A DNA stretch of 64,000 nucleotides, from contig NZ_JAJAVC010000007.1 in assembly GCF_020532725.1 (NCBI RefSeq), positions 1-64,000 of the forward strand, written 5' to 3'. Below are positions 49,996-57,868 of the stretch, one piece after another (positions within the stretch are counted from its first letter, which is position 1; the number at the start of each line of letters is the position of its first letter). Position numbers and translations under genes: made by a program. The notes beneath the pieces were generated by a model. It had not been told where the DNA came from. It was given only the letters and a program-made list of their open reading frames with translations, and ran no database searches. The stretch is from Methylobacillus arboreus (GTDB lineage: Bacteria > Pseudomonadota > Gammaproteobacteria > Burkholderiales > Methylophilaceae).

Positions 49996-50907
49996 ATGCA
50001 ATCAGTACACGAATTGAATGCCCGGTACGGGGTCGGGCATAAAATCCATTTTTCCGCCGATCTTAACGGCCTGGTGACGCTGGAGATTGAAAATCCGCAC
50101 GCCACTGCCAAGGTTGCCTTGCAGGGTGGGCATGTCATGCAATGGAATCCGCGGCATGACGAGGCGCCGGTGCTGTGGCTGTCCGATCAGGCACGGTTTG
50201 TTGCCGGGCGCTCAATTCGTGGCGGCGTACCGGTCTGCTGGCCATGGTTCGGGCCGCATCCCACGGATGAAACCCTCTGCCCGCATGGGTTTGCCCGTGT
50301 CGTGCCATGGGAAGTCGTGGATGCCAGGCCCGAGCCGGACAATACCACCAGCCTGGTAATGCGTCTGGTGGATAGCCGCCAGGTGGAAAAGCAATGGCCT
50401 TACGATTGCGAGCTCACGTTGACGATTAATGTGGGGCCGGTGCTCAAGATGGCATTGACCACCATCAATCATGGCAGCGAACCGTTTGTGATCGGCGAAG
50501 CGTTGCATACTTATTTCCAGGTCAGCGATATCGAAGTGGTCAGAGTGCTGGGCCTGGACCATACCGAATACGAGGACAAGGTTGAGGATTACGCGCTCAA
50601 GCGCCAGTCTGGCGATGTTACTTTCAATGACGAGGTTGATCGTGTGTACCTTAATACCGAGTCTACCTGCGTGTTGGAAGACCCGGGCTTGCGGCGCAAG
50701 ATCATTATTGAAAAGTCGGGCAGCCGTTCAACCGTGGTCTGGACGCCATGGGAACGCAAAGCGGCCGAGATCGGCGACCTGGGCAGCCATTACGGCTGGC
50801 GGCATATGCTCTGTGTCGAGTCTTCCAATGTCAGGGATAATATGGTGACTGTGGAGCCTGGCAGCTCACACACCTTGAATGTTCAGTACAGCACCGAGAG
50901 CTTGTAG
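49996..50907 (+). CDS. D-hexose-6-phosphate mutarotase (YeaD type)
   Basis: A 303-residue aldose-1-epimerase-fold enzyme that interconverts alpha and beta glucose 6-phosphate. Blocks: QGGHVMQWNP, RGGVPVCWPWFGPHP, HGFARVVPWEV and the catalytic EALHTYFQVSDI. In a ribulose monophosphate methylotroph it would speed glucose-6-phosphate turnover toward its dehydrogenase; that link is inference. Confidence 0.88.
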   Translation: MQSVHELNARYGVGHKIHFSADLNGLVTLEIENPHATAKVALQGGHVMQWNPRHDEAPVLWLSDQARFVAGRSIRGGVPVCWPWFGPHPTDETLCPHGFARVVPWEVVDARPEPDNTTSLVMRLVDSRQVEKQWPYDCELTLTINVGPVLKMALTTINHGSEPFVIGEALHTYFQVSDIEVVRVLGLDHTEYEDKVEDYALKRQSGDVTFNDEVDRVYLNTESTCVLEDPGLRRKIIIEKSGSRSTVVWTPWERKAAEIGDLGSHYGWRHMLCVESSNVRDNMVTVEPGSSHTLNVQYSTESL

Positions 50908-51009
50908 CCGGTCTATTATTGACATGGCGGGCGGCATGGTCAACGCTGCTATGGCCTGAACCGTTGTAATGCATTCAGGTGAAGCAGGACGGCCTCCCAA
51001 GGAGATGGA

Positions 51010-51336
51010 ATGAAGACAATCATACGCATATTGGTGGCCACAAGTTGTTTGTTCATGGCAGGGCAGGCGGTAGCGCTGGATGCAAAAGCGGCAGAAGCGC
51101 TTGCCCAGAAGAATGGCTGCCTGGCTTGCCACACGATCAAGCAAAAGGTCATTGGCCCCGCGTTGCAGGATATTGCCGCGAAGTACCGGGGCGAGCAGGG
51201 GGCGGAAGCCAAGCTGATTGGCCGGGTCAAGAACGGCACGAGCGGAGTTTGGGGGCCGGTTCCCATGCGGCCCAACAGCCCACAGGTAAAGGATGAAGAC
51301 ATCAAGCTCATTGTGCAGTGGATACTGACCTTGTAA
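51010..51336 (+). CDS. Periplasmic class I cytochrome c
   Basis: A 108-residue c-type cytochrome with a signal peptide (ending MAGQAVA, then LD) and one heme site CLACH (about 37-41) with a distal methionine in PVPMRPNS. It resembles cytochromes c551/c552. AAGGAG precedes the ATG. It lies 2.5 kb before xoxF and could accept electrons from it, but XoxF partners (XoxG) are usually larger and adjacent, so this is only a possibility. Confidence 0.88.
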   Translation: MKTIIRILVATSCLFMAGQAVALDAKAAEALAQKNGCLACHTIKQKVIGPALQDIAAKYRGEQGAEAKLIGRVKNGTSGVWGPVPMRPNSPQVKDEDIKLIVQWILTL

Positions 51337-51355
51337 ACACTGTGGTTTAATCTTG

Positions 51356-51386
51356 AAAAACCAGTCGCTGATCGGCTGGTTTTTTC
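51356..51386 (+). terminator. Terminator of the cytochrome c gene
   Basis: AAAAACCAG and CTGGTTTTTT flank a GC-containing loop region 20 bases after the stop, giving a stem with a T run. The rest of the 327-base gap to 51664 is repeat copy 3. Confidence 0.85.
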
Positions 51387-51393
51387 TTGTCTT

Positions 51394-51664
51394 AGAGCCT
51401 GTGCAGCCTCGTTTCATGGGGTACGCATGGTTTAAAAACGCGTCCGGTCAAGGCGCAGGCCTCAGGTGATGCTTATTGCTTACGCCTTGTGACTGCGACG
51501 CGGAGCGGGCGCGTTTTGAGTCCATGCCCTTCGGGTTATCCCACCATGGCAGCCGCTGCTGCGTTGCCCATCCTCGCCGGGCAGTAAGCCCGACTGTGGT
51601 GGGCGCCTTGCTTCGACTACCATGGTGGGCAACGTACCCGATGAAACAAGGCTGCACAGGCTCT
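51394..51664. repeat. Intergenic inverted-repeat element, copy 3 (long form)
   Basis: A 271-bp element. Left arm AGAGCCTGTGCAGCCTCG and the complement of the right arm AGAGCCTGTGCAGCCTTG differ once, then both continue TTTCAT and, after one more mismatch, GGGTACG. The inner module with AACGCGTCCGGTCAAGGCGC and GAGCGGGCGCGTTTTGA is shared with copy 2. It lies between two convergent genes; the last base of the element completes the TAA stop of the sigma-54 activator gene. Confidence 0.88.
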
Positions 51665-53577
51665 TATGCCAGGCCGAGCGCCTTGAGCTTGCGGTAGAAA
51701 CGGTTGCGGCTCATGCCTAGCTCGCGTGCTGCGGCAGAGATATTGCCTTCATGATGTTGCAATGCCAGCCTGACTGCCTCATTGGTAATATCGTCGATAG
51801 AGCCTGCGGACAGGGCTGCCGTAGCGGCTTGTTCCGTGGTGATGCTACCCAGTTCTTCCATAAAGCCTGGTGGCAGGTGCTGGCGGCCCAGTGGCTTGCC
51901 TGCAGCTAGCGCCAGCATGGTTTTCAGCACATTGTGCAATTGGCGGATGTTGCCCGGCCAGGGGTGTTGGCGGAACAGTGCCAGCACCTCTTCATGAATC
52001 TCGATCTCGCTGGCGCCTTCCGCGGCCATGATGTGATTTACGAGGGCGTTCAAGTCTTGACGTTCTCGCAATGGCGGCAATGTCAGGCTGATACCGTTCA
52101 GGCGATAATAGAGATCCTTGCGGAATGCGCCCGAGGCTACTTTTTCCTGTAGTTTCTGGTTAGTGGCGCTGATGACGGCAAAATCCAGCTTTCTGGCCTT
52201 GCTGCCGCCCAGCGGGGTAACGCTGCGCTCCTGCAATACGCGCAACAAACGGGCTTGCAACAACAACGGCATATCGCCAATTTCATCCAGGAACAAAGTG
52301 CCGCCATGCGCTTGTTCCATCTTGCCCTGGCTGCCTTTCTGGCGTGCACCAGTGAAAGCGCCTTCCTCATAACCAAACAGTTCGGCTTCAATCAATCCTT
52401 CGGGCAATGCGGCACAGTTGACTGCAACCAGCGGGCCATGAGCGCGGGCGCTGCTCCGGTGAATGGCGCTTGCTAGCAATTCCTTGCCGACGCCGGTCTC
52501 ACCCTGGATCAGGATAGGAATATCCTGGTTCATGACCAGTCTGGCCTGGCTTAATACCTCGGCGATACGCGGGTCATCGCTGGTCATTTCGACCAAGAGG
52601 CCGGTAGGTGCGGAGGAGGTGCGTATCGCGGCAATCCTGTCATTCGCAGACGGATCTGCTTCAATCTCAAGTACGGCATGGAGCGGTTCACCATTGATCT
52701 GGCGTAGGTTTAATACGACATTTTGCTGGGATTGATTGCAAATGCCGGTAAATGACTCCGCGAAGATGGATTGGAAGTCGCCAGGAATGTCCTGCAAATC
52801 CAGCAGGCTGAGTCCATGCCTGTTGATGGCCAGCAGCTCGCCTTGTCGCGAAAATACTGCGATGCCTTCCCACTGGGTATTGACGAAGTCGGAGTGGGTA
52901 TGGAAATGCAGCCGTACCGGCCCCTGGTGGCAGGCCCTGAATATGCGGTTTTCTATGAGCTGGGCTGCCATTTTCACCAACGCCAGCGTGTGCGGCTGTT
53001 GAGTGGAGAAGGCATTGGATACATTGAGTGTGCCAAGCAGTTGCTGATTGGGACCAAAAATGGGGACTGCATAGCAGCTAAAGCTGTGTAGTTGCTCAAC
53101 AAAATGCTCGGCGCCTTGCACTGCCACGGCCTGTTTTTCCACAATCGCGGTACCGATGGCATTGGTGCCGCGCTGTTGTTCGCACCATGAATAACCGGGG
53201 CTTAGCAGCTCACTGGGGGCAAGGTCAGTCAGCAGGTGCTGGCCCTGGCTGTGCAGGATGGTGCCTTCTGCATCGGTGAGTGCTACCACGCTATGGGAGT
53301 GGGCGATTTGTTCATACAGCGTAGTGATCTCGGGTTTTGCCTGGGTAAGCAGCAAACGATTCTTGCTGCGCTTTTTATCCAGCTCAGCACTATTCAGTAT
53401 CGCCGTACTTAATGGCTGGGAGGCGCTGATGCCATTCTTCAGGCTGCGTCGCCAGGATTGTGCAATTGTTTTGTTGACCACGCCCTCCTGCATATCGCCT
53501 TGTGCAAGAAACTGTCGCCTTGCATGTCCGATTTGTTGCAGGGATTTTGTCATGGGGTGATGCATGAGTAACTTCAT
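51664..53577 (-). CDS. AcoR-like sigma-54-dependent activator
   Basis: About 637 residues. A GAF-type sensor region (about 60-200) is followed by the AAA+ domain with Walker A GETGVGKELLASAIHR, the sigma-54 contact loop EEGAFTGARQ and Walker B GGTLFLDEIGDM, then a Fis-type helix-turn-helix at the C-terminus (GNISAAARELGMSRNRFYRK). The frame opens at 53619, but that start would put a palindromic operator inside the coding region, so an ATG at 53577 (or 53565, 53553) is preferred. Divergent from xoxF, its probable target. Confidence 0.9.
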   Translation of the reverse strand: MKLLMHHPMTKSLQQIGHARRQFLAQGDMQEGVVNKTIAQSWRRSLKNGISASQPLSTAILNSAELDKKRSKNRLLLTQAKPEITTLYEQIAHSHSVVALTDAEGTILHSQGQHLLTDLAPSELLSPGYSWCEQQRGTNAIGTAIVEKQAVAVQGAEHFVEQLHSFSCYAVPIFGPNQQLLGTLNVSNAFSTQQPHTLALVKMAAQLIENRIFRACHQGPVRLHFHTHSDFVNTQWEGIAVFSRQGELLAINRHGLSLLDLQDIPGDFQSIFAESFTGICNQSQQNVVLNLRQINGEPLHAVLEIEADPSANDRIAAIRTSSAPTGLLVEMTSDDPRIAEVLSQARLVMNQDIPILIQGETGVGKELLASAIHRSSARAHGPLVAVNCAALPEGLIEAELFGYEEGAFTGARQKGSQGKMEQAHGGTLFLDEIGDMPLLLQARLLRVLQERSVTPLGGSKARKLDFAVISATNQKLQEKVASGAFRKDLYYRLNGISLTLPPLRERQDLNALVNHIMAAEGASEIEIHEEVLALFRQHPWPGNIRQLHNVLKTMLALAAGKPLGRQHLPPGFMEELGSITTEQAATAALSAGSIDDITNEAVRLALQHHEGNISAAARELGMSRNRFYRKLKALGLA

Positions 53578-53584
53578 GGATAAT

Positions 53585-53603
53585 TTTGGGAACTGTTCCC
53601 AAA
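53585..53603. promoter_or_regulatory. Upstream activator palindrome 1
   Basis: TTTGGGAACTGTTCCCAAA is a perfect 19-bp palindrome centred at 53594, about 164 bases upstream of the predicted xoxF start and just ahead of the activator gene. A near copy lies at 53701-53719. It is the likely binding site of the divergent activator and may also control that gene. Confidence 0.75.
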
Positions 53604-53700
53604 TGTAGCACTTGTGCAATTTTGTTACAACCTCTCATCGCCTGCCTTGAGCGACATTTAGGGATGAAACGGTATGGCAACATATTATTTTTGTTTGGTT

Positions 53701-53719
53701 TTTGGGAATTATTCCCGAT
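53701..53719. promoter_or_regulatory. Upstream activator palindrome 2
   Basis: TTTGGGAATTATTCCCGAT has the same half-site GGGAA as palindrome 1, perfect over its inner 13 bases (53704-53716). The two centres are 116 bp apart, close to 11 helical turns, so proteins bound at both would face the same side of the DNA. Confidence 0.7.
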
Positions 53720-53731
53720 TGTTGTGCCGGC

Positions 53732-53747
53732 TGGCATGCAGCTTGCT
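53732..53747 (+). promoter_or_regulatory. Sigma-54 promoter of xoxF
   Basis: TGGCATGCAGCTTGCT is one base from the TGGCACG-N4-TTGCT consensus and matches the nas operon promoter in both conserved blocks. Transcription should start near 53758, giving a leader of about 100 bases before the TTG start. Confidence 0.85.
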
Positions 53748-53858
53748 GAATAGGGCCTGCAAGTTGGTGACCAGAGGTTCATTGGTCATGGTGCCGTATT
53801 GACGGTGGAGAACGTCATACGGCAGATAAAACAACAATCACACTATGGAGAATATCCC

Positions 53859-55730
53859 TTGAAAGCCAAGAGTTTGAAAATAGCACTGGGTGCCAGCCTG
53901 ATTGGCCTGACATCCATTCCTGCTTTTGCAGCAGATGAGCTGGAAAAGCTGATTCAGGACGATAACCAGTGGGTGGCACCGCGTAAGGATTACGCCAGCA
54001 CTGGTTACAGCAAGCTGTCGCAAATCACCGCGTCCAACGTCAAGAATCTGAAGGCAAGCTGGACTTTTGCCACAGGCGTGAACCGCGGTCACGAAGGTGC
54101 CCCGCTGGTCATCGGCGATATCATGTATTTCACGACAGCCTTTCCTAACAATGTCTACGCGCTTGATCTTAATAATGAGGAAAAGATCAAGTGGTCGTAC
54201 TTCCCTAAGCAGGATCCTTCCGTGCAGGCGCTGTTGTGCTGCGATAACGTGACGCGTGGTCTTGCTTATGGCGACGGCAAGATTTTCCTGCAGCAGAATG
54301 ATGGCCAGCTGGTTGCACTGGATGCCAAGACAGGCGCCAAGGTCTGGGAAGTGAGCGTTGTCGATGTGAAGCAAGGCGCAACCACGACCAACGCCCCTCA
54401 TGTATTCAAGGATAAAGTCATCACTGGTTGCTCCGGTGGCGAATACGGCGTGCGCTGTTACCTGACTGCCTACAATATCAAGGATGGTTCGCAGGCATGG
54501 CGTGCTTACAGCACCGGTCCTGACAGCGAAGTGTTGATCGGCGACAACTTCAACAAGGACAACCCGCACTACAGCGCTCTGTCAGTATATGAAGACGTCA
54601 ATGGCGGCAACAAGGAAGGCGGCTCCTTCAAGCCATTACCCAAGGAAAAGCTGAAGTTCCCTGAAAAAGACCTGGGTGTTAAGACATGGCTCAAGCCACA
54701 AGCGACCAAGAACGGTTGGGAGCAGGGCGGCGGCGCTACTTGGGGCTGGTTCTCCTATGATTCCGGCCTGAACCTGGTGTACTACTCCACTGGTAACCCA
54801 TCCGTCTGGAACCCGGACGTACGTCCTGGTGACAATAAGTGGTCCATGACCATTTTTGCACGTGATCTGGACACTGGGTTTGCCAAATGGGGCTATCAGC
54901 TGACGCCGCATGATGAATGGGACTTTGATGCAGTGAACGAAACCATTCTCTGGGATGCCGACGGCAAGAAGCTGGCGACTCATTTCGACCGCAACGGCTT
55001 TGGCTACACCTTGGACCGTCAAACCGGCAAGCTGCTGGTTGCCGAGAAGATGCATCCCTTCGTTAACTGGGCCACTGGTATCGACCTGACGACTGGTATT
55101 CCAGTCAAGGATCCCAAGTTCTCTACCCATGAGGATGTGAACGTCACAGGTATTTGTCCTGCCGCCTTGGGCGTGAAGGATCAGCAGCCTGCTGCTTACT
55201 CACCCAAGACCAAGCTGTTCTATGTTCCGCTCAACCATGTTTGCATGGATTACGAGCCAGTCGAAGTGAAGTATGTGGCCGGTCAACCTTGGGTTGGCGC
55301 CACACTGAGCATGTACCCTGGTCCTGATGGCGTGATGGGTGGCTTTATGGCCTGGGATGGCCTGAAGGGCAAGCAAGCTTGGTACAAGAAAGAGAAGTTC
55401 TCGGTATGGAGCGGCGCTTTGGCAACCGCATCCGACGTTGTCTTCTATGGCACGCTGGATCGCTGGTTCAAGGCTGTTGACGCCAAGAGCGGCAAGGAAC
55501 TTTGGAAATTCCGCGTGGGCTCTGGTGTCGTCGGCAACCCGATTACCTATGGCCACAAGGGCAAGCAATACGTCGCAATCCTCTCCGGCATTGGTGGCTG
55601 GGCAGGTGTGGCAATGAACCTGGGCCTGACCAACGACAACGAAGGTCTGGGCGCAGCAGGTGGTTACAAGGAGTTGAAGGAGTGGAATGCGGCACCTGGT
55701 GGTGGTGCACTCAACGTATTCAGCCTCTAA
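53859..55730 (+). CDS. xoxF: Lanthanide-dependent PQQ methanol dehydrogenase XoxF
   Basis: A 623-residue periplasmic quinoprotein oxidising methanol. HDEWDFDAVNE has the catalytic Asp followed two residues later by the extra Asp that coordinates a lanthanide; the calcium enzyme MxaF has Ala there. The vicinal cysteines (ALLCCDNVTRG) and tryptophan-docking repeats (WKFRVGSGVVGNP) are present. The frame is open to 53799, but TTG at 53859 has GGAG eight bases upstream and begins directly with a signal peptide (KAKSLKIALGASLIGLTS, cut after AFA). No xoxG or xoxJ follows, so it is an orphan copy. Confidence 0.96.
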   Translation: MKAKSLKIALGASLIGLTSIPAFAADELEKLIQDDNQWVAPRKDYASTGYSKLSQITASNVKNLKASWTFATGVNRGHEGAPLVIGDIMYFTTAFPNNVYALDLNNEEKIKWSYFPKQDPSVQALLCCDNVTRGLAYGDGKIFLQQNDGQLVALDAKTGAKVWEVSVVDVKQGATTTNAPHVFKDKVITGCSGGEYGVRCYLTAYNIKDGSQAWRAYSTGPDSEVLIGDNFNKDNPHYSALSVYEDVNGGNKEGGSFKPLPKEKLKFPEKDLGVKTWLKPQATKNGWEQGGGATWGWFSYDSGLNLVYYSTGNPSVWNPDVRPGDNKWSMTIFARDLDTGFAKWGYQLTPHDEWDFDAVNETILWDADGKKLATHFDRNGFGYTLDRQTGKLLVAEKMHPFVNWATGIDLTTGIPVKDPKFSTHEDVNVTGICPAALGVKDQQPAAYSPKTKLFYVPLNHVCMDYEPVEVKYVAGQPWVGATLSMYPGPDGVMGGFMAWDGLKGKQAWYKKEKFSVWSGALATASDVVFYGTLDRWFKAVDAKSGKELWKFRVGSGVVGNPITYGHKGKQYVAILSGIGGWAGVAMNLGLTNDNEGLGAAGGYKELKEWNAAPGGGALNVFSL

Positions 55731-55834
55731 TACGGTTTCACCTTCAAACGTATAACGGCGTTGGGCCGCACTTGCCGTGCGCAAGCACTGCCTGCGGCGG
55801 CCCGCCTTGTTCTACGCTTGAATGCAAAACCGTA
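55731..55834 (+). repeat. Imperfect inverted repeat directly after xoxF
   Basis: TACGGTTTCACCTTCAAACG (from 55731) and the complement of 55813-55834, which begins TACGGTTTTGCATTCAAGCG, pair with a few mismatches, enclosing a GC-rich inner pair (GGGCCGC with GCGGCGGCCC). In RNA it makes a long stem immediately after the xoxF stop, upstream of the intrinsic terminator, and may protect the 3' end. Confidence 0.6.
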
Positions 55835-55900
55835 TAAACCATCGTTAAGCAGTACCCCTGTCGCCAGACAGGGCTCATCTCCATTTTAGTAGTCCCTTCT

Positions 55901-55931
55901 AGCCAGTCCCTTGTGGGCTGGCTCTTTTTTT
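55901..55931 (+). terminator. Intrinsic terminator of xoxF
   Basis: AGCCAG with CCC, a TTGT loop, then GGG with CTGGCT, followed by seven T after one C, 170 bases after the stop. Confidence 0.85.
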
Positions 55932-55937
55932 GCGAAA

Positions 55938-56444
55938 TCAAGGGCGAGCGCAGCGATGCCAAGTCCGGGTTTGACCTTCGCTCCCATGTGACCGCGCCGA
56001 GCAGCGCAGGGGATGTCGCGGGCAGTTGGGTCGCCTTTTCTTTGGTCCTGTTTCTTTTGGCGAGACAAAAGAAATGGACTCGCCCGGCGGGGCGAAACCC
56101 ATCCTCTCGTAAATAGCAGTATTGAATTAAGACCAGAAATTTTTAAGTGTTAAGGGCAATGATCTTGTCCCTCATTGCAAACAATTGAACGGTTGCCTTT
56201 CGCTTGCCAGCGAGTATCTTTCTTTTGCTTTGCCAAAAGAAAGATACCAAAGAAAAGGCGACCCCGATTGTCTGCGTCCCAGAGCAAAGCTCCGGGCAAC
56301 CTGCGTTGCTCGCTTTTAATGGGGTCTGGCTGAACTCGCTGCGCTCAGACAGCTGCCAGTCCTTTTTCCATTAAAAGCTGTGCTACTCGGCGCAGCCAGA
56401 CGGGAAGAAACTCCAGCCCTTGGCTTTTCTGCGCTCGCCCTTGA
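55938..56444. repeat. Large imperfect inverted-repeat element
   Basis: Both ends carry TCAAGGGCGAGCGCAG with GCCAAG a few bases inward (55938 onward; complement ending at 56444). Further in, the arms share GGGTCGCCTTTTCTTTGGT and TTTCTTTTGGC (56028 onward; complement ending at 56264). No open frame of recognisable function lies in the 731-base gap 55731-56461. The GTCGCCTTTTCTTTGG motif is familiar from scattered intergenic repeats of proteobacteria; here two such units face each other. Confidence 0.65.
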
Positions 56445-56461
56445 GTTCATGTTTGGCCGGG

Positions 56462-57868
56462 TTAGCTCTTTCGTTGCCTGAGTTTGCTGTGATGCATGGA
56501 ATAAGCAAAGTACACCACAATGCCAATGCCTACCCAGACCAGGAAACGGTGCCAGGTTTCATCGGGCAGGAAGGTCATGAGTGCACCGCATGACAGGATG
56601 CCTAATACTGGAATCACAGGGCCCCATGGGTTTTTGAATGGCCGGTGCAGATTGGGCTGGCGGATGCGCAATGCGATCACGCCGAAGCAGACCATGACGA
56701 AGCTGGCGAGGGTACCGATGTTGACGGTTTCTGCCAGTGTGCCAAGCGGGAAAAAGCCTGCGACGACGGAAATGATGCTGCCGCAAAGCAGGATCAGGCG
56801 TGTCGGGGTGTGGCGTTCCGGGTTTACCTCGGAAAAGATGGCGGGGATCAGGCCGTCGCGGCTCATGGCGTACAGGATGCGGGTGAGGCCGTAAAGCAAT
56901 ACCAGGAGCACGGTGATAAGGCCGGCGAGTATCCCGGTAGCGACTAGGGTGGAAGACCAGGAATAGCCCAGCTGGCTTAAGGCATAGGCGACCGGGGATG
57001 AGACATTGAGGTCGGTATAGTGCACTACGCCGGTGAGCACGCCGGATACCAGGATATAGACCAAAGTGCAGAAGCTTACTGCGACGATCAGGCCGATCGG
57101 CAGGTCGCGTTGCGGGTTGCGCGCTTCATCGGCGGCAGTGGATACGGCATCAAAGCCGAAATAGGCAAAAAACACCAGCGAGGCGCCGGCGAGAATACCG
57201 ATATTGTTGCCATCGGCCTGGGTTGAGAACCAGCCATAGGGCATGAAGGGCTGCCAGTTTTCGGTATTGACATGGCCGATGGCAATGGCGAGAAAAATGG
57301 CGATGGTGCTGAGCTTGATGGCGACCATGATGTTGTTGACGGTGGAGCTTTGCTTGACGCCGCTTATCAGGACTAACACCAGCAGCCAGATGATGCCGAA
57401 GGCGGGCAGGTTGATGATACCGCCCTGGCTTGGTGCCTTGGTCCAGGCTTCAGGAATCACGATGTTGAAGTTGGCGAGTGTGTTGATGAAGTAGCCAGAC
57501 CAGCCGTTGGCAACCGCGGCGGCGCCGACACCGTATTCGAGCAGCAGTATCCAGGCGATGACCCAGGCAAAGAATTCGCCGAAGGCGACATAGGTGTAGC
57601 CATAGGCGCTGCCTGAACCGCCGACCGAGGAAGCAAGCTCGGCATAGGCAAAGCCGGCAAAGGCTGCCGCCAGGCCGGCAATAATGAAGGAGATTACCAC
57701 GGCCGGGCCTGAGTACAGCGCTGCCGCGATGCCGGTGAGCACGAAAATCCCGGTGCCTATGGCACAGCCTATTCCGAGCAGGGCGAGGTCAAATGCGGAA
57801 AGGCATTTTTTCAGGCCGCTGTGGCGGCCTATCTCAACCGGTTTGGTGCGGAATAGCTGTGCAAACAT
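56462..57868 (-). CDS. APC-superfamily amino acid permease
   Basis: A 468-residue inner membrane carrier with about 12 helices, of the cationic amino acid transporter type (YfnA-like). Blocks: LSAFDLALLGIGCAIGTGIF, FAYAELASSVGGSGSAYGYT and FFAYFGFDAVSTAADEARNP. The ATG at 57868 has GGGAG just upstream; an earlier in-frame start is unlikely. The substrate cannot be named from sequence. Confidence 0.9.
   Translation of the reverse strand: MFAQLFRTKPVEIGRHSGLKKCLSAFDLALLGIGCAIGTGIFVLTGIAAALYSGPAVVISFIIAGLAAAFAGFAYAELASSVGGSGSAYGYTYVAFGEFFAWVIAWILLLEYGVGAAAVANGWSGYFINTLANFNIVIPEAWTKAPSQGGIINLPAFGIIWLLVLVLISGVKQSSTVNNIMVAIKLSTIAIFLAIAIGHVNTENWQPFMPYGWFSTQADGNNIGILAGASLVFFAYFGFDAVSTAADEARNPQRDLPIGLIVAVSFCTLVYILVSGVLTGVVHYTDLNVSSPVAYALSQLGYSWSSTLVATGILAGLITVLLVLLYGLTRILYAMSRDGLIPAIFSEVNPERHTPTRLILLCGSIISVVAGFFPLGTLAETVNIGTLASFVMVCFGVIALRIRQPNLHRPFKNPWGPVIPVLGILSCGALMTFLPDETWHRFLVWVGIGIVVYFAYSMHHSKLRQRKS

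Follow-up and report, generated by a model that had tools for sequence, protein, structure and literature searches.

A xoxF gene of Methylobacillus arboreus is very probably (rough probability 0.85) driven by a sigma-54 circuit in which a divergently encoded activator of the GAF-AAA+-Fis type acts on GGGAA-N3-TTCCC operators. The gene lies in the stretch of DNA analyzed here (the window), which covers the initial 64 kb of contig C15 in a genome of 3.05 Mb and 17 contigs. Comparison with relatives indicates that the circuit occurs in many genomes across the family, presumably the Methylophilaceae, where it would serve one group of XoxF proteins. The same comparison indicates that the operator has been rewritten in the window's genus relative to the rest of the family.

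A predicted sigma-54 promoter upstream of activator-linked xoxF genes

The core of the proposed circuit consists of two divergent genes separated by an intergenic region of 281 bases. The genes and the predicted promoter are as follows.

53859..55730, + strand: xoxF, 623 amino acids, TTG start, N-terminal signal-peptide-like stretch, TIGR03075 match
51664..53577, − strand: divergent sigma-54 activator, 637 amino acids, GAF-AAA+-Fis helix-turn-helix (PF01590, PF00158, PF02954)
53731..53747, + strand: candidate −24/−12 sigma-54 promoter CTGGCATGCAGCTTGCT (17-mer), 12/13 consensus match
53758, + strand: predicted xoxF transcription start, placed by the geometry of the −12 element, giving a 101-nt leader

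The element CTGGCATGCAGCTTGCT stands 111 bases ahead of the xoxF start. Within it, TGGCATGCAGCTTGCT (53732–53747, + strand) has the correct GG-N10-GC spacing and matches YTGGCACGN4TTGCW at 12 of 13 positions. The window contains four bare matches to this motif with at most one mismatch, where 2.86 would be expected; four or more also turn up in 39 of 100 shuffles. Since this count is unremarkable, the promoter claim required comparative evidence from outside the window.

Activator homologues were sought in 187 genomes of the family (E ≤ 1e-100), and the surroundings of every homologue were examined, with the window counted as one. At least 59 homologues are present in 53 of these genomes. This number is a lower bound because only part of the candidates were scored; three loci that turned up later (L222, L223, and L225), whose activators lie at contig ends or match in several frames, stand outside the 59. 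The divergent partner is xoxF in 44 cases (43 fetched loci and the window) and an aldehyde dehydrogenase-like open reading frame (ORF) of 506–543 amino acids in 10, with both of the two ORFs tested belonging to PF00171. The remaining five activators face another ORF (two cases), a 683-amino-acid ORF (one case), or a contig edge (two cases). A single rpoN match is found in the source genome, and 176 of the 187 family genomes have one.

All 43 linked xoxF genes compared carry a GG-N10-GC element matching at 11–13 of 13 positions within 250 nt, located 75–130 bases before the start codon. The shuffle background for a site of at least 11/13 is 0.5% (2,150 shuffles). This linked set comprises the window and 42 fetched loci; L166 was excluded because its xoxF match is partial, and a 12/13 site is seen there too. 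As a control, 40 xoxF upstream regions outside the linked set were chosen among the matches listed, three of which turned out to have an activator homologue and a sigma-54 site. In the other 37, the sequence fetched (∼2.2 kb upstream, or shorter where a contig ends) contains no activator homologue. Among them, one (L224) has a site of at least 11/13, with a score of 13/13, and the best score in the other 36 is 10. For 18 of these 36 site-less controls the start codon was set by match coordinates because the short coding tail gave no match. Around the sigma-54 element, the intergenic sequence is for the most part poorly conserved among linked loci. A chance origin of the motif, although possible from the window alone, is very unlikely after the comparison of 43 out of 43 linked genes.

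Paired palindromes that change with the recognition helix

Two palindromes lie between the divergent genes.

53588..53600, no strand: putative distal operator GGGAACTGTTCCC, center at about −164 relative to the predicted xoxF start, 10 bp past the activator ATG
53704..53716, no strand: putative proximal operator GGGAATTATTCCC, center at about −48 relative to the predicted xoxF start

The distal palindrome extends to TTTGGGAACTGTTCCCAAA (53585–53603). Exact copies of GGGAA-N3-TTCCC occur only at these two places in the window, 116 bp apart. When the 281-bp intergenic region was shuffled with dinucleotides preserved, 4 of 20,000 shuffles had one such palindrome and none had two. At zero mismatches, the 17-mer TTGGGAAYTRTTCCCRA occurs genome-wide at the two operator places only. 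A wider regulon based on the palindrome was considered and rejected for lack of any further zero-mismatch place, although sites with two mismatches exist. Invariant columns across five genomes make up 7/13 and 10/13 of the two operators, versus 9/66 and 11/91 of sequence nearby.

The operators can be sorted by the recognition helix of the adjoining activator. Five activators, all in the window's genus, have the helix SRNR. At their loci GGAAnTnTTCC is present in the proximal place in five of five and in the distal place in four of five, with the two copies 116 bp apart in all four. No exact copy is found in the 39 other xoxF-linked loci, four of which have a one-mismatch match at other places; these non-SRNR loci mostly carry CTGTnnCA-N3-TGnnACAG. 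Among 43 loci with an SRNT helix, including four without an adjoining xoxF in the fetched stretch, 34 have CTGTnnCAnnnTGnnACAG at two mismatches or fewer, versus 1.6% of shuffles. The aldehyde dehydrogenase group tends to TGTCTCAnnnTGAGACA (7 of 11 at three mismatches or fewer, versus 2.7% of shuffles). Each of these three patterns is a dyad around a 3-bp center. The contrast from group to group, not the pattern counts, carries the operator evidence, and this co-change with the recognition helix supports the view that the palindromes are the activator's own putative sites.

The first-pass annotation of this DNA, which was made from the window alone, had called a sigma-54 element upstream of xoxF, paired GGGAA-N3-TTCCC palindromes with 116-bp spacing, and a divergent gene with a GAFTGA loop. 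The palindromes are exact copies and the sole two in the window, the divergent gene encodes a GAF, AAA, and Fis helix-turn-helix protein with GAFTGA at 406, and the 12/13 element is now backed by comparison across linked homologues. Its proposal that this activator controls xoxF through sigma-54 has gained strong comparative support (sites at 43/43 linked genes versus 1/37 without an activator).

Alternative explanations and conflicting observations

The rival explanation that survives best, although we consider it unlikely, accepts the sigma-54 promoter as real. In this scenario the palindromes would be bound by some other regulator, such as a repressor, and the activator would act on an ancestral remnant at ∼53610–53632. 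The stretch 53601–53634 is indeed the most conserved of those compared (25/34 columns invariant in five genomes versus 9/66 in the next stretch), and it sits where family relatives have CTGTnnCAnnnTGnnACAG, which L138 matches at two mismatches. However, the best match to the ancestral pattern in the window has three mismatches and falls instead over the distal palindrome. Moreover, the new palindromes arise in the clade with the altered recognition helix and are confined to this intergenic region genome-wide. The conserved stretch could also be read as follows.

53602..53630, − strand: possible sigma-70 promoter for the activator, TTGTAA-N17-TACATT plus an extended −10 TGC, proposed from its sequence

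This putative promoter, which abuts the distal operator, matches at 8 of 12 positions by hand count and was not reported by the promoter scan. The segment is possibly the activator promoter or, alternatively, a remnant of the ancestral operator.

It is far less probable that xoxF is transcribed from a sigma-70 promoter, with a fortuitous sigma-54-like element and with palindromes that are hairpins or weak terminators. The lack of significance of the bare motif in the window would agree with this explanation, and the proximal palindrome does score as terminator-like, with a T-rich tail. On the other hand, the sigma-54 site is found at 43/43 linked copies versus 1/37 copies that are activator-less in the fetched stretch, and the promoter scan reported no sigma-70-like match on the xoxF strand. 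An intrinsic terminator ahead of the promoter would also have no evident purpose without an upstream gene on the same strand. Just as improbable is a nitrogen-responsive xoxF that depends on sigma-54 through NtrC or another general activator, with the divergent gene as a bystander: methanol dehydrogenase expression does vary with nitrogen source in communities that include Methylophilaceae, according to passages of one report (PMC5723320), but the activator stays beside xoxF in 44 of 59 cases across diverged genomes and the operators track its helix.

Several observations weigh against the proposed activator circuit itself. Taken by itself, the promoter motif is within chance in one window. 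The linked genes share descent and therefore are not independent tests. Similarly, the SRNR helix and its operator are confined to one clade, so their co-change may be a single event. Counts for the SRNT and aldehyde dehydrogenase patterns are descriptive because the patterns were read off the same loci, and the fit to them is poor in 9 of 43 and 4 of 11 loci, respectively. One of the five SRNR genomes (L139) has a degenerate distal operator. The proximal operator sits closer to the promoter than is usual, too close for a typical enhancer, and may serve a different function.

Three sets of loci depart from the expected arrangement and also count against the circuit. The L224 xoxF (G177:C9) has its 13/13 site but lacks an activator within 2.2 kb upstream and is perhaps controlled in trans. 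This gene sits behind ABC-transporter-like ORFs (molybdate type by eye). The activators of L158 and L159 have no adjoining xoxF, and the divergent ORF in both encodes an unrelated 545-amino-acid protein. These two loci are SRNT activator copies within one genome of the window's genus (G054:C1:943030 and 1086062). Finally, the activator beside the second xoxF of G055 (L222, G055:C28) matches in several frames and may be broken or misread, and an 11/13 sigma-54 site is still present there.

A proposed mechanism for activation

If the divergent activator controls xoxF as proposed, then sigma-54 RNA polymerase would transcribe the gene from 53731–53747, and the promoter would be silent until activated. 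An activator dimer would bind the GGGAA-N3-TTCCC operators, and a small cytoplasmic signal would occupy or alter the GAF domain, leading the activator to oligomerize. The GAFTGA loop of the oligomer would then remodel the polymerase. Sigma-54 dependence in vivo, oligomerization, autorepression, and the role of the proximal site are all inferred from known activators of this kind.

The distal operator (about −164) would be the enhancer, and its distance is in the usual enhancer range. Because this site also lies at the likely start of the activator transcript, binding here may activate xoxF and at the same time hold back the activator, making negative autoregulation of the activator gene conceivable as well. 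The spacing of 116 bp is equal to eleven helical turns, which would place both operators on one face of the helix. The proximal operator (about −48) most likely would tune or stabilize the loop or cap output in the manner of a governor. Low-affinity governor sites are found at glnAp2, and by analogy the proximal operator is expected to tune output as those sites do.

A first guess for the inducer is an alcohol or aldehyde of one-carbon (C1) metabolism. The sole support for such a ligand is that sister activators adjoin aldehyde dehydrogenase genes. Twelve N-terminal positions of the activator, including H93, R136, F174, and T183, are conserved with xoxF linkage and not with aldehyde dehydrogenase linkage, which suggests where ligand specificity would be sought.

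The activator and XoxF proteins

The PF01590, PF00158 (225.6 bits), and PF02954 matches of the activator are all above cut-off. Its motifs include the Walker A sequence GETGVGKE at 359, GAFTGA at 406, the Walker B sequence TLFLDE at 427, and the recognition helix SRNR at 623. A Pfam search of the locus neighbors gave no receiver domain match in the activator, and no histidine kinase/response regulator pair was found among the neighboring proteins searched.

The xoxF product scores 649.3 bits against TIGR03075, the model for pyrroloquinoline quinone (PQQ) methanol/ethanol dehydrogenases (cut-off 480.05). TTG 53859 is the most likely start codon as read from the sequence. The closest solved chains are those of XoxF (6oc5/6oc6 and 6dam), and the product's motifs GGEYGVR, TGNPSVW, and EWDFDAV align with their 6oc5 and 6dam counterparts. 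The metal-site residues are E195, N313, D355, and D357, where the extra Asp is the catalytic Asp +2; the ligand list (Glu, Asn, and extra Asp) was taken from passages of PMC11845868. Because these residues lie in motifs that align with the XoxF chains, a lanthanide site is expected. The protein is classed as a lanthanide-type PQQ methanol dehydrogenase of the XoxF4 group, probably near the XoxF4-2 subtype.

In a midpoint-rooted tree of 31 chosen activator proteins, the xoxF-linked activators group in a single clade (99/98) that also includes the activator of L158, a locus lacking its xoxF. An aldehyde dehydrogenase-linked activator (L175) branches next to this clade and the other six fall outside. 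The SRNR activators form a 100/100 clade with a long stem (0.81). These results support a single origin for the xoxF-linked activators. In the XoxF tree the linked proteins are not one clade; the window's clade splits off at a deep fork with weak support. The linked proteins do lie outside the group that contains two reduced-genome proteins (G002 and G007). This group was taken as XoxF4-1 because reduced genomes are said, in passages of PMC6028718, to encode XoxF4-1 only, and the linked type would by inference be XoxF4-2 (Mmol_1770 type).

A cytochrome c module and other features of the locus

A further gene lies beyond the activator.

51010..51336, + strand: small cytochrome c, 108 amino acids (PF00034), identified also by synteny

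A homologue of this gene directly follows xoxF in 26 of the 43 fetched linked loci, and a different cytochrome of 154–162 amino acids does so in five. In L137–L140, as in the window, the cytochrome lies beyond the activator, and the screen used found none in 8 of the 43. The small cytochrome c is a probable partner of XoxF. Its position after linked xoxF genes fits the small cytochrome that adjoins Mmol_1770 according to passages of PMC3728764. The idea that the window's circuit has this gene as a further target was rejected: in five genomes, the 220 bases before it have no sigma-54 site of at least 11 and no palindrome. On visual inspection, the module lies between long inverted repeats (AGAGCCTGTGCAGCC with its complement within 51390–51670; CCTTTTCTTTGG with its complement within 55940–56430), which are possibly linked to rearrangement there.

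An RNA element in the xoxF leader was also rejected as a candidate. The leader has no match to an Rfam family up to E 1 in a search of 50500–57000, and its folding shows no more than modest stability (z −1.83; matched by 7 of 200 shuffles). Downstream from xoxF, at 55859–55930, there is a weak, sub-threshold match to RF02278, a toxic small RNA of Betaproteobacteria (E 0.45).

A second activator–xoxF pair and possible operator rewiring

The first-pass annotation had described this XoxF as an orphan and its control as a distinct circuit. The first description is inaccurate, given an activator–xoxF–cytochrome c module in relatives and three more close xoxF copies in the genome. The second holds in that the circuit would be one-component, local, and sigma-54 based, but it would be common to many family genomes rather than belong to one orphan gene.

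One of the three further xoxF copies has its own divergent activator (L136, C3:489120–493153). The activator and xoxF of this pair are 53% and 79% identical, respectively, to those of the window, and the pair has its own sigma-54 element, CTGGCACACGCTTTGCC (11/13), and the other operator type. With two activator–xoxF pairs in one genome, two parallel circuits seemingly run side by side. Both pairs are present in the source genome and in G056.

A tentative explanation, which we rate at slightly below even odds, is that after a duplication in the genus one copy changed from SRNT to SRNR and its operator from CTGTnnCA-N3-TGnnACAG to GGGAA-N3-TTCCC. Because helix and operators would have changed together in one duplicate, the outcome would be two paralogous sigma-54 circuits that control two XoxF proteins in one cell, with separate GAF inputs and no cross-talk. 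If this is true, the locus would be a natural case of enhancer rewiring, and a small and clean one for the study of regulation.

Sites outside the family

We surveyed 370 genomes of the class, 27 of which encode a close relative of the XoxF from a Nevskia metagenome-assembled genome. Among the 30 xoxF loci in those 27 genomes, sites of 10–12/13 are upstream of six and sites of at least 11 upstream of two. The idea that every XoxF is under sigma-54 was rejected, since a site of at least 11 is present at only 2 of 30 loci. Five of the six site-bearing loci were examined over a wider region. In two (L312 and L313, whose sites score 10 and 11), a sigma-54 activator lies within ∼2.5 and 6 kb, that of L313 being matched over the AAA and helix-turn-helix part only. 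The other three have no activator nearby, including L314, which has the best site (12/13). At the Nevskia locus, a 12/13 site is accompanied by an activator that lies 2.7 kb downstream. Together these loci hint weakly that sigma-54 control of xoxF may also exist outside the family.

Other features of such loci were noted. Clusters L100, L312, and L313 have sigma-54-like sites of 10–12/13 upstream of xoxF. In L100:300–7004, a sigma-54 activator is near xoxF, and by eye the ORFs that come next look like class III alcohol dehydrogenase and S-formylglutathione hydrolase. The named-genome scan had its closest activator at L056:2472–5001, where opposed sigma-54 sites of 12 and 13 out of 13 lie in the gap. 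The divergent genes there are a cytochrome-like ORF (by eye) and genes for a solute-binding protein and a PQQ-associated beta-propeller-like protein.

Relation to published expression data and known systems

Published expression of this XoxF type is consistent with a tightly controlled gene, though it is not uniform. As given in passages of PMC3728764, Mmol_1770 is up four- to sixfold and Msip34_0016 100-fold in situ, and m301_1208 is very low. Passages of PMC6028718 describe XoxF4-2 activity as low in extracts and cite XoxF4-2 as decreased in communities. Mutants of xoxF have been published for Methylotenera mobilis JLW8 (PMC6028718). A sigma-54 promoter with a dedicated activator on one XoxF4 group would give a concrete reason why expression of the copies may differ. 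If the duplicated circuits were rewired as suggested above, they would also offer the cell an additional way to select a methanol dehydrogenase, apart from the lanthanide switch.

A sigma-54 promoter or operators of xoxF were not described in the open-licence literature among the matches listed, a search that leaves most subscription papers outside. Among the mapped promoters of Methylosinus sporium, passages of PMC12403871 name sigma-54 sites at nitrogen genes. In the passages of PMC11845868 at hand, XoxF control is discussed by way of the lanthanide switch and two-component systems. The legend of Figure 1 in that review, which shows xox clusters and has Methylotenera mobilis among its four species, names a GAF-modulated sigma-54-specific regulator. 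This regulator is very probably the same neighbor gene as the activator of the window, which therefore was already known as a xox neighbor. The legend gives it as a neighbor only, and the passages at hand contain no promoter, operators, conservation, or function for it.

Three kinds of known systems can be compared with the proposed circuit. The label AcoR-type, which we take to denote GAF-AAA-Fis activators of aldehyde and acetoin catabolism genes, fits the domain order of the activator, and its sisters are divergent from aldehyde dehydrogenase genes, with a similar dyad geometry in their putative sites. In contrast, the target in the window is a periplasmic-type lanthanide quinoprotein, and both helix and operator differ.

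The MmoR/mmoX system for soluble methane monooxygenase in methanotrophs likewise has a GAF-related sigma-54 activator, a YTGGCACG-N4-TTGCW promoter, and an enzyme for the first step of C1 oxidation. For M. trichosporium, passages of PMC5874634 state that rpoN inactivation abolishes expression of soluble methane monooxygenase. The enzyme and organisms are different, and mmoR is in or near the mmo operon, whereas here the activator is divergent and the operators lie between the genes. The MxcQE/MxbDM, MxaY/MxaB, and PedS2/PedR2 systems control the same enzyme families (passages of PMC11845868). However, these are two-component systems linked to the lanthanide switch, whereas the system in the window would be one-component, local, and dependent on sigma-54.

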